Shown here in pieces: positions 3,447-17,372 of a stretch of 27,146 nt of DNA. Under the pieces are notes generated by a model. It ran no database searches. It saw only the letters and a list, made by a program, of their open reading frames with translations, and was not told the origin of the DNA. Position 1 is the first letter of the stretch. Each line of letters starts with the position of its first letter. Made by a program: the position numbers and the translations under genes. This DNA is from a virus: positions 1-27,146 of IMG/VR virus record IMGVR_UViG_3300049827_000043. The stretch is one strand, 5' to 3'.

Positions 3447-3687
3447 GGATGGTTCAGCAGACTTTTCTTTTGATTTAACAAGCGAAGAAAGACAAAGTTT
3501 GTTGTTGTACGGGATTATGCAGGCTTTAAAGGCCGCAGTTGAAGAAGGAATAAAATATGACCCAGGTAAAATTGATGTGGGTGACACCACACGCGGAGGA
3601 GAAGATAGCGTACATGGCTCGGGTGAGCAATCCGGCGAACCAGAACAACCCTCAGACGGCTTCAAAACTTCTCAAGTACTTGGTTAA
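3418..3687 (+). CDS. Hypothetical acidic protein (89 aa), C-terminus overlaps ThyX
   Basis: No recognised family. The N-terminal half (MQVNLIRENEDGSADFSFDL, then EERQSLLLYGIMQALKAAVEEG) looks like a strand pair and a helix. The C-terminal 43 residues are low-complexity and Gly/Asp/Glu/Ser-rich. That second half is also the start of thyX in another frame (131 shared bases), which may explain its odd composition. Start ATG 3418 has a strong AAGGAG eight to twelve bases upstream and lies 29 bases inside the resolvase-like gene. Function is unknown; similar small proteins are common beside phage nucleotide-metabolism genes. Confidence 0.65.
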   Translation: MQVNLIRENEDGSADFSFDLTSEERQSLLLYGIMQALKAAVEEGIKYDPGKIDVGDTTRGGEDSVHGSGEQSGEPEQPSDGFKTSQVLG

Positions 3688-4207
3688 GAACAAGCACTGG
3701 AGTCCGTTCGAGATGGTCAACGTCTGCATGGAGATTGAAACCACCAGGGACATTGCCCGTCAGATCCTGCGTCATCGTAGCTTCAGTTTCCAAGAGTTCA
3801 GCCAACGCTATGCAGTGGCAGAAGCTTTTGAGAAGCGTGAGTGCCGTAAGCAGGACGTTGTTAATCGCCAGAATAGCCTAGCGGTGGACGTTTATGGCAA
3901 TGATGAAGATCGGTACTTGGCTACTTGGTGGGACGAGGTGCAGCAACGCCTCACCAAAGAAGCTGAGTTCCTGTACGAGTCTGCTATCAGCAAAGGCATC
4001 GCTAAGGAGGTCGCTCGATCACTTCTTCCCGAAGGTCTTACAGCCTCTCGACTGTACATGAATGGAACCCTGCGTAGCTGGATTCATTACATTGACATTC
4101 GTTGCGATAAGGCAACACAGAAGGAGCATCGTGAGGTAGCGGAACAATGTCGAGATATAATCTTTGAACATTTTCCCAGTATTAAAGAGGTCTTGAATGC
4201 GAGTTAA
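3557..4207 (+). CDS. thyX: FAD-dependent thymidylate synthase ThyX
   Basis: Converts dUMP to dTMP using methylenetetrahydrofolate, NAD(P)H and FAD, so it makes thymidylate without a separate dihydrofolate reductase. The 216-aa length fits the family. The ThyX signature RHR-x7-S is present as R72-H-R74 to S82 (RHRSFSFQEFSQR), within the dUMP/FAD-binding region. The C-terminal LLPEGLTASRLYMNGTLRSW and the IDIRCDKATQKEHREVAE segment match the rest of the fold. ATG 3557 has AAGGAA about eight bases upstream and starts inside the previous gene. The neighbouring class II RNR suggests a combined pathway raising dNTP supply. Roseophage SIO1 also carries a ThyX. Confidence 0.96.
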   Translation: MTQVKLMWVTPHAEEKIAYMARVSNPANQNNPQTASKLLKYLVKNKHWSPFEMVNVCMEIETTRDIARQILRHRSFSFQEFSQRYAVAEAFEKRECRKQDVVNRQNSLAVDVYGNDEDRYLATWWDEVQQRLTKEAEFLYESAISKGIAKEVARSLLPEGLTASRLYMNGTLRSWIHYIDIRCDKATQKEHREVAEQCRDIIFEHFPSIKEVLNAS

Positions 4208-5543: not shown

Positions 5544-5808
5544 TGGAATTGAGGACTACATGAGGTCACTGAACCTTCCTGAGAAAGCGCCCCAAAAAGG
5601 TGCTAATTCTAAGCAAATCTCTGGTAGTCACTATAGTGACAAAGAAATCCAGCCTTGGGACTATATTCATGCAAATAACCTTTGCTATTTTACCGGAAAC
5701 TGCGTAAAATACGTGTCCCGTTGGAAAGACAAGGGCGGTATAGATGACCTCAAGAAAGCCATCCACTATCTTGAGAAGCTGATTGAACTAGAACAAGGAA
5801 AAAAATGA
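5494..5808 (+). CDS. DUF3310 family protein
   Basis: Small phage protein (104 aa) with the DUF3310 signature: a GSHYSDKEIQPWDYI entry followed by the helix FTGNCVKYVSRWKDKGGIDD and a final helix LKKAIHYLEKLIELE. Members are often labelled nucleotide kinase (T7 gp1.7-like), but that function should not be assumed; the domain recalls all-alpha nucleotide-handling folds. The start ATG 5494 is supported by GGAG about eight bases upstream; a TTG at 5473 would add only seven residues. It overlaps the metallophosphoesterase by 50 bases, and its TGA overlaps the RNR ATG (ATGA). Placement directly before RNR suggests a nucleotide-metabolism role. Confidence 0.85.
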   Translation: MDEWTPLPGTIHYTTRDGIEDYMRSLNLPEKAPQKGANSKQISGSHYSDKEIQPWDYIHANNLCYFTGNCVKYVSRWKDKGGIDDLKKAIHYLEKLIELEQGKK

Positions 5809-7703
5809 CCCCGTATCAAACATATATTGCAAAAAGCCGTTACAGCCGGTTCCTGGACGATAAAGGACGCCGTGAGCACTGGGAGGAGACAGTTGCTCGG
5901 TACTTTAACTTCATGGAAAAGCACCTCAAGGACAAGCACCAATATACGCTCAGTCCTGCCCTCCGTTATGAGCTTGAACAGGCCGTAACTAACCTGGAAG
6001 TTATGCCCTCGATGCGGTCAATTATGACTGCTGGCGAGGCTCTGGAGCGTCAGAACATCGCTGGCTATAACTGCTCGTACCTGCCCATTGATGATCCCAA
6101 AGCCTTTGACGAGGCTATGTACATCCTCTTGTGTGGCACAGGCGTGGGCTTTAGCGTGGAGCAGAAATATGTTAACAAACTACCAGAGATTCCTGAAAAG
6201 CTGTACGACAGCAATACTACTATTGTTGTTAAAGACTCCAAGGAAGGATGGGCAAAGGCTCTCCGTCAAATCATTGCTCTCCTCTACGCCGGTGAGATCC
6301 CGAAGTGGGATGTTTCCGCAGTTCGTCCTGCCGGTACACGCCTTAAGACCTTCGGTGGACGGGCAAGCGGACCAGAGCCTCTGGTGGAGTTGTTTAAATA
6401 TGTTATCGCCAAGTTCAAAGGAGCTGTGGGGCGTAAGCTACACACCATCGAGTGTCATGATATTCTCTGTAAGATCGGGGAAGTTGTCGTCGTGGGCGGA
6501 GTGCGCCGTAGTGCTATGATCTCCCTGTCTGACCTGGGTGATGACCGGATGGCTCACGCTAAGGCAGGCAACTGGTGGGATGGTAATGGTCAACGAGCCT
6601 TGGCTAACAACAGTGCTGTATACGAGGTAAAGCCTGACGTTGGTCAGTTCATGCGTGAATGGTCTAACATCTATGAATCTCACTCCGGTGAGCGAGGAAT
6701 CTTCAATCGATATGCTTCAGAACTTCAAGCAGAAAAGAATGGACGCCGTAGCTTGGATAAAGAATGGGGTACAAACCCTTGCAGCGAGATTATTCTTAGA
6801 CCTTATCAATTTTGCAATCTTTCTTCCGTTATTGTTCGTAACGGGGATGATATGGATCGACTTCGTAATAAGGTACGCTTGGCAACGATTCTGGGGACTT
6901 TTCAATCGACCATGACCCACTTCCCGTACCTGCGGAAGATCTGGCAGACCAACACCGAAGAAGAGCGTCTCCTGGGCGTGTCTATGACCGGTATTCTTGA
7001 TAATCCGTTGCTGAACAGTGCCTATGACTTGGACCTGCCTAAGCGCCTTGAGGAGTTGAAGAATGTTGCTATTGATACAAACGCTCGGATGGCTAACGAT
7101 CTTGGCATCCCTGTATCTGCCGCTATTACTTGCGTTAAACCAGAAGGCACTGTGTCTCAGCTTACGGGAACTGCTAGTGGTATCCATCCCCAGCATAGTC
7201 AGTACTATATTCGCCGTGTGCGTTCTGACAACAAAGACCCTCTGACCAACTTCCTGAAGTCTCAAGGGTTCCCGTCTGAGCCGTGTGTGATGAAGCCTGA
7301 TTCAACCACTGTGTTTAGTTTCCCTCAGAAGGTGGGTGAAGGGGCGGTGCTACGAGAGGATCTAAGCGCCGTAGAGCACCTGGACCTCTGGCTGGTATTC
7401 CAGCGCCACTGGTGTGAGCATAAGCCTTCTGTGACCATCTCTGTGAACGAGAATGAGTGGCCTAAGGTCGGTGCTTGGACCTGGGATCACTTCGATGAGG
7501 TCACTGGCGTGTCTTACCTGCCCTACGATGGTGGTACGTATCGTCAGGCTCCCTACGAGGAAATCACCGCTGGTGAGTATCTCCAGATGGCCTTAGAAGT
7601 GCCTAAGTTCATCGACTGGGAATCCTTCATCGAGGGTACTGACAACGTGGAAGGTGCTCAGATGCTATCCTGCACCGCAGGGGCGTGTGAAATTGCCTTC
7701 TAA
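5805..7703 (+). CDS. Class II (B12-dependent) ribonucleoside-triphosphate reductase
   Basis: Reduces ribonucleotides to deoxyribonucleotides using adenosylcobalamin to form a thiyl radical; monomeric type like the Lactobacillus leichmannii enzyme (RTPR, NrdJ class). All expected cysteines are visible: C90 (GYNCSY) and C337 (FCNLSS) as the redox pair, C326 as radical site with E328 in TNPCSEI, and C623/C628 in the C-terminal CTAGAC. The 11-residue gap between C326 and C337 equals that between C408 and C419 in RTPR. At 632 aa it is about 100 residues shorter than RTPR. No NrdB or activase gene is adjacent, as fits an oxygen-independent class II enzyme. The start overlaps the previous stop (ATGA), with AAGGA upstream. 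Activity would need host cobalamin. Confidence 0.95.
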   Translation: MTPYQTYIAKSRYSRFLDDKGRREHWEETVARYFNFMEKHLKDKHQYTLSPALRYELEQAVTNLEVMPSMRSIMTAGEALERQNIAGYNCSYLPIDDPKAFDEAMYILLCGTGVGFSVEQKYVNKLPEIPEKLYDSNTTIVVKDSKEGWAKALRQIIALLYAGEIPKWDVSAVRPAGTRLKTFGGRASGPEPLVELFKYVIAKFKGAVGRKLHTIECHDILCKIGEVVVVGGVRRSAMISLSDLGDDRMAHAKAGNWWDGNGQRALANNSAVYEVKPDVGQFMREWSNIYESHSGERGIFNRYASELQAEKNGRRSLDKEWGTNPCSEIILRPYQFCNLSSVIVRNGDDMDRLRNKVRLATILGTFQSTMTHFPYLRKIWQTNTEEERLLGVSMTGILDNPLLNSAYDLDLPKRLEELKNVAIDTNARMANDLGIPVSAAITCVKPEGTVSQLTGTASGIHPQHSQYYIRRVRSDNKDPLTNFLKSQGFPSEPCVMKPDSTTVFSFPQKVGEGAVLREDLSAVEHLDLWLVFQRHWCEHKPSVTISVNENEWPKVGAWTWDHFDEVTGVSYLPYDGGTYRQAPYEEITAGEYLQMALEVPKFIDWESFIEGTDNVEGAQMLSCTAGACEIAF

Positions 7704-15876: not shown

Positions 15877-16212
15877 TTAAATTCCTTGTTTCTTAATCTG
15901 CTCAAAAGTGCAGATAAGGCTAATTGTACTGCCAGCTTCACTGGTGGCTTTAACAGTATCGCCCTCTTCCAACACAAAATAAGCACTACCGTCAATCTGT
16001 TTAAAATCCTTAGTGCTAATAGTATATGTGTTTAACAGATAAATATCTGTACTAGCGCTAGAATCATGCCAAACAATGGTAATATGCTTAGAAGATGTAG
16101 ACCCGTTGGTAATATGTGAAAGATTCCATTTGGCATAATAACCAATAGGAACCGTATACACAGTTGTTTCAACCCCTGCTGTAAGGTTCAACCCAACGCT
16201 TATTTCTCTCAT
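15877..16212 (-). CDS. Small beta-rich virion protein (111 aa)
   Basis: Alternating hydrophobic strands throughout (TTVYTVPIGYYAKWNL, KHITIVWHD, AYFVLEEGDTVKATS, STISLICTFEQI) suggest a jelly-roll or Ig-like fold. The EEGDTVKATSEAGST segment resembles small phage structural proteins seen next to adaptors or decoration proteins. Precise role unknown: head decoration or tail accessory. ATG 16212 overlaps the TGA of the 56-aa gene (ATGA), fixing the start. The stop directly abuts the adaptor start. Confidence 0.6.
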   Translation of the reverse strand: MREISVGLNLTAGVETTVYTVPIGYYAKWNLSHITNGSTSSKHITIVWHDSSASTDIYLLNTYTISTKDFKQIDGSAYFVLEEGDTVKATSEAGSTISLICTFEQIKKQGI

Positions 16213-16379
16213 TTTTTCTTCTTACCTTTAGTCATGCCGGCCTCGCTCATGGCAATAGCAACAGCCTGCTTACGGGATTTAACCACAGGACCACCCTTGC
16301 CGCTATGCAGAGTACCTTCTTTGTACTCACCCATAACCTTACCGATCTTCTTTTGACCTTTGGACATCTTAGTAGCCAT
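16209..16379 (-). CDS. Small Lys-rich protein (56 aa), DUF6496-type
   Basis: Reading down from ATG 16379 gives a 56-residue basic protein: MATKMSKGQKKIGKVMGEYK, then EGTLHSGKGGPVVKSRKQAV, then AIAMSEAGMTKGKKKK. It has about 14 Lys. The segment pairing VMGEYKEGTLHSG with VKSRKQAVAIAMSEAG is the pattern of the DUF6496 family, common in phages and some bacteria. Function unknown; a DNA- or capsid-associated role is plausible from the charge. The stop overlaps the start of the 111-aa gene (ATGA). A short gap separates it from the Cys-rich gene. Confidence 0.8.
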   Translation of the reverse strand: MATKMSKGQKKIGKVMGEYKEGTLHSGKGGPVVKSRKQAVAIAMSEAGMTKGKKKK

Positions 16380-16381
16380 GA

Positions 16382-16792
16382 TTACTCCTTAGTGATTGGA
16401 CCGCCTGATTTCCACGCATCACAGGTGCGGGAACCAGCACAGAGAAAATGAAACAATTCACAGAATCCGAGGTTAGCTGCTTCCATGAATTGATCTTCAT
16501 AAGCAAGCCCTTTCTCGTTCTCCATGTTACCTTCCATACCTGACTTGATACATTCCAGCATTGCAGGGGTCTGAATAAAGGCAGAACAATTACCACAACG
16601 CATATTCTTAACGTCTTTAGACGGAGCGTTATACATCTTGGCTTTCTTCATCCAGAACACTTCGTTAGGAAGCGAAGGATCAGGGGGACCATAACCAAAC
16701 TTCTTAAATGCGTTATTTCGGTTCTTTAGGTTAACTTGAATGTCCTGGGTAGCCACGGGACAGACCTTACCGTTCAACAAACCTTCTTTCAT
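16382..16792 (-). CDS. Cys-rich HiPIP-like protein in the tail gene cluster (136 aa)
   Basis: The protein has seven Cys: C11, C66, C69, C81, C111, C118 and C124. The C66-x2-C69 pair (MRCGNCSAF), C81 and the LGFCELFHFLC stretch resemble the CxxC...C...G-(W/Y/F)-C-x2-(F/Y/W) layout of high-potential iron-sulfur proteins, though spacing between the third and fourth Cys (29) is longer than usual. The C-terminal Cys-containing tail (SRTCDAWKSGGPI) is outside that motif. Zinc binding is the alternative. No signal sequence is visible. The start overlaps the TGA of the membrane protein gene (ATGA). Its purpose within a virion operon is unknown. Confidence 0.65.
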   Translation of the reverse strand: MKEGLLNGKVCPVATQDIQVNLKNRNNAFKKFGYGPPDPSLPNEVFWMKKAKMYNAPSKDVKNMRCGNCSAFIQTPAMLECIKSGMEGNMENEKGLAYEDQFMEAANLGFCELFHFLCAGSRTCDAWKSGGPITKE

Positions 16793-17013
16793 GGAAGCAC
16801 CTTGTGTGTAATTGCTGCGTAAATAGCCCCAAAGAAGGCTCCAACGATCAGGATAGGTTTAACAGCCTTAGCCAGCCACTCAAGCACCGTAAAAGCCCCA
16901 GAAGCAGCTCTGAAGGCACTTATCATGTCCTTGGTGTTGTTGTCGATCTTATCAACCTTCTGTTCAACTTGAACGAGTCGCTCGTAGATCTCTTTGTGGC
17001 TGATTTCATCCAT
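16789..17013 (-). CDS. Small membrane protein with N-terminal coiled coil (74 aa)
   Basis: An N-terminal charged coiled coil (ISHKEIYERLVQVEQKVDKI) is followed by one strong transmembrane segment (about 50-69, AVKPILIVGAFFGAIYAAIT) and a short tail (HKVLP). Such proteins in phages are often labelled holin or antiholin, but this gene lies in the tail-fibre region, about 8 kb from the endolysin. It may be a second holin-like protein or a virion/membrane accessory. Its stop overlaps the start of the Cys-rich gene. Confidence 0.6.
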   Translation of the reverse strand: MDEISHKEIYERLVQVEQKVDKIDNNTKDMISAFRAASGAFTVLEWLAKAVKPILIVGAFFGAIYAAITHKVLP

Positions 17014-17015
17014 GA

Positions 17016-17372
17016 TTATAGCGGTTTAATAACAGATTGTAAATCATTTAGGGAAACACCGGCAGGAACCATAGAAGGGTCCAGAATCTCAGCAGTATCT
17101 GCATCCCTCAGTGCATGGACACAATAAGCCACGGTATTATCTTCAAGGGCTTTTAAGAAATGACGTTTACCTGCGACAATAAGAATCATGTGAGGGGCGC
17201 TGAACGTGCTCTTATTGCCTTCAACATCCACTTCAACACTGCCTTTAGCAAGTAGTGTCACATGGTCAAAATTATGCTCATGTCCTTCGTTTTGATCTCC
17301 AGCCTTTACAAACTGCATTTGACGCAGCCAGAGATTACTAACACAAGCCATATTTGTCACAGGAGCATCCAT
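17016..17372 (-). CDS. Cupin-fold protein (118 aa)
   Basis: A single cupin domain. Motif 1 is G30-H31-E-H33-x3-H37 (GHEHNFDHVTLLAKGSVEV) and motif 2 is around PHMILIVAGKRHF (His71), giving a plausible metal site. Cupins bind metals and small molecules, often sugars; in phages single-domain members are found near tail-fibre genes. Whether it is an enzyme, a virion component or a fibre-tip accessory cannot be told. It lies two bases after the 96-aa gene and just before the small membrane protein. Confidence 0.75.
   Translation of the reverse strand: MDAPVTNMACVSNLWLRQMQFVKAGDQNEGHEHNFDHVTLLAKGSVEVDVEGNKSTFSAPHMILIVAGKRHFLKALEDNTVAYCVHALRDADTAEILDPSMVPAGVSLNDLQSVIKPL

Follow-up and report, generated by a model that had tools for sequence, protein, structure and literature searches.

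A phage protein family with a predicted fold most like that of high-potential iron-sulfur proteins

The minus strand of the 27,146-base virus record, here called the window, encodes, at 16382-16792, a 136-aa protein with an ATG start and seven cysteines, for which structure prediction suggests a domain with the fold of high-potential iron-sulfur proteins (HiPIPs). Among solved structures, the predicted fold of two subfamilies of this protein is most like HiPIP. We tentatively propose, with a little less than even confidence, that the protein is a cytoplasmic HiPIP-fold module, probably carrying a [4Fe-4S] cluster, that would act as an accessory by docking on phage assembly proteins. If true, this is unusual for phages, in that an optional late gene would encode a fold typical of periplasmic electron carriers but lacking their export signal.

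The open reading frame and its relatives

The 136-aa ORF overlaps the upstream 74-aa ORF (16789-17013, minus strand) through an ATGA stop/start, and the AAGGAG that precedes the next gene sits within its final codons. Comparison of the window gene with the six relatives that have a usable dS gave dN/dS values of 0.026-0.077 (dS was saturated in three further relatives tried). The ORF is real and is under strong purifying selection. A chance ORF is ruled out by these values together with counts of the family signature, C-x-N-C-x2-[FYW]...G-x-C-x2-F...C-x-[ASG]-[WY], which occurs in 226 of 241 family ORFs and is absent from all 15,407 other ORFs encoded at these loci and from all 4,820 shuffles. 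The window protein matched no Pfam, PHROG or NCBIfam model, so that routine annotation readily overlooks the family. The Pfam HIPIP model (PF01355) gave no match in the window at E 1 and reached a best single score of 14.1 bits, against a cut-off of 22, over 13 members of the family; single and profile sequence searches of the PDB returned nothing credible, and a plasmid search gave no match.

More than 270 related loci were gathered. IMG/VR scans with three queries returned 203, at least 590 and at least 489 relatives, the best 80 of each being kept, and a fourth query returned five. The main set of 241 sequences combines the window protein with IMG/VR relatives, nine genome loci and six phage records (L087, which is the window itself, was dropped before counting), and a single HMM finds all 241. 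A marine subfamily, the third beside subfamilies A and B, was reached through gp68 of Roseobacter phage CRP-13; the family HMM matches 32 of its 33 loci, and the one that it did not confirm (L288) was dropped from the marine set. Because CRP-13 is a cultured phage that carries this homologue, metal content, virion presence and deletion phenotype are directly testable. The records of carrier phages come from lake, spring and seawater sources. A first scan of genome contigs found zero relatives and a second found nine loci, all titled as metagenome-assembled genomes and possibly phage contigs; searching the seven genomes behind these loci with PF01355 gave one true HiPIP, located elsewhere in the genome. 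Some homologues (L237-L241 and L001) have an N-terminal extension of 100-230 residues, and one of these (L241) had no Pfam or PHROG match.

The window genes scanned include those for a family A DNA polymerase, ribonucleotide reductase, portal, major capsid, tail and lysozyme proteins, from which we infer that the window likely derives from a podovirus-like tailed phage. The replication arm of the phage encodes a ThyX thymidylate synthase (3557-4207) and the ribonucleotide reductase (5805-7703).

Conserved cysteines, predicted fold and candidate ligands

The cysteines of the window protein lie at positions 11, 66, 69, 81, 111, 118 and 124. The original prediction had pointed to seven cysteines with a C-x2-C pair, a third cysteine and a G-F-C-x2-F motif, and all of these are present, as C66-G-N-C69, C81 and G109-F-C111-E-L-F114. 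It had also taken C66, C69, C81 and C111 as the ligands of a metal cluster, a proposal against which relatives lacking these residues would count. Cys66 (16595-16597; this and the following codons are on the minus strand), Cys69 (16586-16588) and Cys111 (16460-16462) are kept in 241/241 sequences, whereas Cys81 (16550-16552) is found in only 155/241 and is missing in 86. Cys118 (16439-16441) is present in 241/241, and Cys124 (16421-16423) in 240/241, the single sequence without it being cut off by a contig end. Because C66, C69, C111, C118 and C124 are invariant and C81 is not, five cysteines, rather than the four originally named, define the family, and the ligand set that includes C81 does not stand. 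C11 is present in 154/241. In the marine subfamily, C-x2-C-x21-C-x6-C-x5-C is found in 31 of 32 loci, the remaining one being cut, and none of the 31 complete motifs has a counterpart of C81. N68, W47, G109 and F116 are also kept in 241/241 main-set sequences, and aromatic residues persist near the proposed ligands (F72, as F or Y, in 241/241; F114 in 226/241; W127 in 240/241). A divergent member (L368) keeps the five cysteines, with G109 and W127 changed.

AlphaFold2 models were made for the window protein, with 71 of 77 representatives in the alignment (L001-L006 left out), and for a subfamily B member (L165, 38 sequences). The best window model had a pLDDT of 80.7 and the other four 61.5-75.5, and the five subfamily B models had 91.5-93.6. 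When these were compared with the PDB by Foldseek, HiPIPs took ranks 1-7 and 9 of 19 for the window model (best E 0.19) and ranks 1-13 of 54 for the subfamily B model (best E 0.027). VIA-align gave 13 rows for the window model, all of them HiPIPs and none a glycyl radical enzyme chain (best Z 5.4, 74 residues, 2.9 A), and 18 rows for the subfamily B model, 14 of them HiPIPs (Z 4.0-5.4) and the other four short glycyl radical enzyme chains (Z 2.2-2.9). The individual scores are weak, with none at E 0.001 and no Z at 8, such that these Z values may reflect a common arrangement alone, and the rows of each list are not independent because HiPIPs resemble one another. Nonetheless, the original prediction and GenBank labels had named HiPIP beforehand, so that the search tested a single fold specified in advance, and HiPIP came first twice. 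The HiPIP-like assignment, for which comparison of predicted structures had been the suggested check, is supported in part: both subfamily models match HiPIPs before other solved folds, with weak E and Z values and a PF01355 score below the cut-off.

Four of the conserved cysteines occur in the HiPIP order (C-x2-C, C, C), and we paired them with HiPIP ligands using hhalign and an alignment of fifteen HiPIP sequences. The full set, subfamily B and subfamily A scored 23.2, 23.8 and 22.1, above all 30 column shuffles in each of the three tests (best shuffle 22.2, 18.4 and 18.2), with weak probabilities of 12-20 per cent, and of 0.05-4.7 per cent in global runs. Six alignments were made in all: for the full set, both the local and the global alignment place C66, C69, C111 and C124 (or their equivalents) on the four HiPIP cysteines, as do the local one for subfamily A and the global one for subfamily B; the local one for subfamily B pairs the last cysteine differently, and the global one for subfamily A was not valid. 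In HiPIP numbering, the proposed ligands C66, C69, C111, within G-[YFW]-C-x2-F, and C124, within C-x-A-W, would correspond to C43, C46, C63 and C77; C118 has no HiPIP counterpart in the alignment. The aligned ends of both structural models place C124 on HiPIP C77 (131 with 84; 118 with 85) if the last stretch is ungapped, and C77 appears in the title of PDB entry 1js2 as a site of a cluster ligand. Judged from conservation and from these alignments, the likeliest ligands are C66, C69, C111 and C124, a pairing that would also account for the absence of C81 from some relatives. Counting against it, the strict family signature fits 6/15 HiPIPs, and the looser spacing pattern of the original prediction fits 15/15 HiPIPs and 149/241 family ORFs.

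The same fold could instead hold a structural zinc ion, making the protein a zinc-stabilised accessory domain with no Fe-S cluster. Four or five cysteines with a C-x2-C pair suit zinc too, and the two metals are indistinguishable from sequence or from a metal-free model. HiPIPs proper are exported and the phage protein is seemingly not, in that the Tat motif RRxF[LM], a single strict pattern, is found in 0/241 family ORFs over their first 160 residues (several of the HiPIP sequences collected carry other RR motifs). Five of the non-HiPIP Foldseek matches of the window model (E 3.6-8.6) are beta' chains of RNA polymerase, in which zinc-binding domains occur, and 2ida is another, but these lie far below the HiPIPs. 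No recognised zinc ribbon chain is among the top fold matches (50 of 54 rows for the subfamily B model), although absence from lists of this kind does not count against zinc. Aromatic residues line HiPIP cluster cavities near the ligands, and the phage family keeps F72, F114, F116 and W127 near its proposed ligands. All VIA-align rows at Z >=2 come from families with [4Fe-4S] members (in part after PMC12358834). We regard zinc as unlikely, while still the most serious competitor to an Fe-S cluster.

Gene neighbourhood, fusions and optional presence

The 74-aa ORF upstream of the gene encodes a small membrane protein with one hydrophobic stretch and a weak likeness to holins (phrog_689 holin, E 0.0037); it forms the left border of a site that is occupied or empty in different phages, of which the right border is a Lys-rich DUF6496 peptide (16209-16379, minus strand; PF20106, E 1.3e-10). 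A tail protein (phrog_10775, E 1.6e-10) is also encoded downstream. A cupin and a small membrane protein had been described as neighbours, and both are found upstream; the match of the former (17016-17372) to Pfam Cupin_2, at E 0.004, is below the cut-off of that model, hence our term "cupin-like". The best PHROG matches of the cupin-like ORF are tail fibre families, and a cupin-like cluster, named by eye, follows subfamily B copies in 15/84 loci. Placement inside a tail gene cluster, as originally described, is true of the window but not of all relatives, some of which lie near terminase, portal-like or nin-type genes. The labelled phage records have the gene near capsid protease, DNA transfer protein, terminase or nin-type genes, and one further locus (L369) has it flanked by a basic-peptide gene on one side and, on the other, by a 672-aa gene that is probably portal, by length and order.

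Within subfamily A, the upstream neighbour is a short gene of two membrane-protein clusters in 101/151 loci, the median gap to the upstream gene over all 151 loci is -1, and small Lys-rich peptides, a loose cluster that includes DUF6496-like ones, occupy the +1 position in 107/152. The commonest neighbours of subfamily B copies are genes other than the membrane-protein gene. Marine copies have basic peptides just upstream in 22/30 loci and, two places upstream, a cluster resembling the labelled endolysin of CRP-13 in 15/28. All three subfamilies thus share small Lys-rich peptides (DUF6496, DUF6321 and alike) as recurrent neighbours of the gene; of the literature searched, one paper mentions any of four such DUF names.

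The domain is fused to Peptidase_S78 (prohead protease) in two scanned sequences (L176 and L216); these are among six protease-fusion candidates, the other four of which (L164, L173, L174 and L193) look similar on visual inspection. A further sequence (L153) has it fused to DUF5872 and DUF6321. A BFVD search gave nine matches below E 0.001, with deposited labels that include portal, prohead protease, XkdF and Dps. We count the Peptidase_S78 and DUF5872/DUF6321 fusions, and the portal, prohead protease and XkdF labels, as a link to assembly that favours docking; some homologues sit away from structural genes, in regions of terminase or nin-type genes, which argues against it.

The neighbouring 512-aa gene served as bait for collecting eighty loci. 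The HiPIP-fold gene is within the stretch fetched in 6/80 of these loci, or 6/61 of those with >1.5 kb upstream of the bait gene. Both flanking genes were matched in 43/80 loci (the other 37 are uncounted), with the gene present in six and the site empty in 32; the gap between the flanking genes is exactly 409 nt in the six carriers, -1 to 38 nt in the 32 empty sites and 288-324 nt in five loci. Three of these five (L330, L354 and L361), being the ones read, have a different 90-aa ORF between the membrane-protein gene and DUF6496, upstream of a 216-aa gene. A locus with a bait protein 89 per cent identical (L289) keeps the order cupin-like, membrane-protein, DUF6496, 111-aa and 216-aa with the gene absent. 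Among 19 whole records, which may be fragments, two contain the gene, both at another place. The gene is accessory. It looks optional, rather than a core part of the particle, because near relatives of the phage do without it, and the idea of a virion protein loses ground with relatives that keep the same gene order and lack the gene. A core virion structural protein is rejected on the same grounds, with 6/61 of the loci that extend >1.5 kb upstream of the 512-aa gene carrying it in the stretch fetched.

These patterns bear on several other readings. Under the "Ferrojan horse" idea, already in print, that phage tails carry iron, the protein would be an iron-bearing component of the virion that serves at the host surface. 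This would suit a gene that sits among tail genes in the window, but we consider it the least probable of the readings given here, with the gene absent from relatives that have the same flanking genes and the scanned fusions pointing to head assembly rather than to tail fibres. Only slightly less improbable is an accessory role in the timing of lysis, together with the small membrane protein of the preceding gene: a short membrane-protein gene is immediately upstream in the 101 main-subfamily loci described above, and the median gap over all 151 is -1, but 32 relatives keep the membrane-protein gene with no HiPIP-fold gene, subfamily B copies mostly adjoin other genes, and the holin label is based on an E of 0.0037. 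HiPIPs are electron carriers, and an optional gene with another ORF at the same site in some relatives resembles cargo, which would be consistent with an auxiliary metabolic protein, a soluble electron carrier altering host redox flow late in infection. However, no RRxF[LM] export motif was found in the 241 family ORFs, no redox enzyme was recognised among the annotated neighbour proteins (a minority of neighbours), and the scanned fusions are with a head protease and DUF5872/DUF6321, not with enzymes of redox metabolism; we consider this role doubtful, less so than the two preceding ones.

Our tentatively preferred reading remains the accessory docking module. A small, non-secreted, HiPIP-like protein would be expressed as part of the late operon in an uncultured phage resembling podoviruses, with a [4Fe-4S] cluster probably held by C66, C69, C111 and C124 and with C118 as an extra invariant cysteine nearby in sequence. 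The cluster would most likely be a fold-stabilising core, possibly oxygen- or redox-sensitive, and the module would dock on phage head, neck or other late proteins, presumably to the benefit of the phage. We also put forward, as an improbable extension, that tailed phages have acquired the [4Fe-4S] HiPIP-fold domain as a mobile assembly module with no Tat signal, which would act on portal and prohead protease by docking or by fusion, and that through its cluster the oxygen level or the redox state of the dying host could influence packaging or the maturation of procapsids.

Comparison with known iron-sulfur proteins

HiPIPs are the best fold match of both phage-protein models. Six of the 15 HiPIPs share with the family C-x-N-C plus an aromatic residue, G-x-C-x2-F and C-x-[AS]-[WY], and the step from C111 to C124 in the window protein is 13, versus 14 for C63 to C77 in the C. 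vinosum HiPIP. Unlike HiPIPs, the phage family falls below the PF01355 cut-off, has no Tat motif that we found, a longer C69-C111 linker and the extra invariant C118, and is encoded in a phage late operon, with fusions. GenBank applies the label "high potential iron-sulfur protein" to seven homologous records, 24-50 per cent identical to the window protein (two of the seven give identical figures), from Manatee Spring phages and Actinomycetia phage DSL-LC01; the HiPIP identity of these proteins comes solely from the record labels. Among the literature matches listed, which are part of those to broad queries such that an unlisted one is possible, we found no paper on HiPIP in phages or on the labelled phage proteins. 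The CRP-13 paper mentions neither iron-sulfur nor gp68 (PMC8528129). PMC5332604 reports Fe-S assembly genes in marine viruses, which is a separate subject.

The small subunits of glycyl radical enzymes (BSS, MASS and HPAD, the last being 2y8n) are the only non-HiPIP chains at VIA-align Z >=2, and their Z against the subfamily B model is low, at 2.2-2.9. PMC12358834 describes HiPIP-like folds with [4Fe-4S] clusters for MASS gamma and beta, BSS beta and HPAD gamma, and gives the HPAD small subunit and BSS gamma an important part in expressing their large subunit in soluble form. Such subunits dock as [4Fe-4S] accessory modules on a larger partner protein (PMC12358834). By analogy, the phage protein may act like them rather than like the periplasmic electron-carrier HiPIPs; no glycyl radical enzyme was found among the window proteins scanned with Pfam, which cover part of the window ORFs.

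The C-terminal domain of lambda gpL is a [4Fe-4S] domain in a structural protein of a tailed phage, with a role for the cluster that is still to be characterised, as described in PMC10721106. Its ligands are Cys173, 182, 205 and 212, without a C-x2-C (PMC10721106), whereas C-x2-C is found in 241/241 members of the phage family. gpL is a tail-tip protein with a cluster kept across homologues (PMC10721106), whereas the window gene is optional. If our proposal is true, the family described here adds to the known Fe-S proteins of phage particles, such as gpL.
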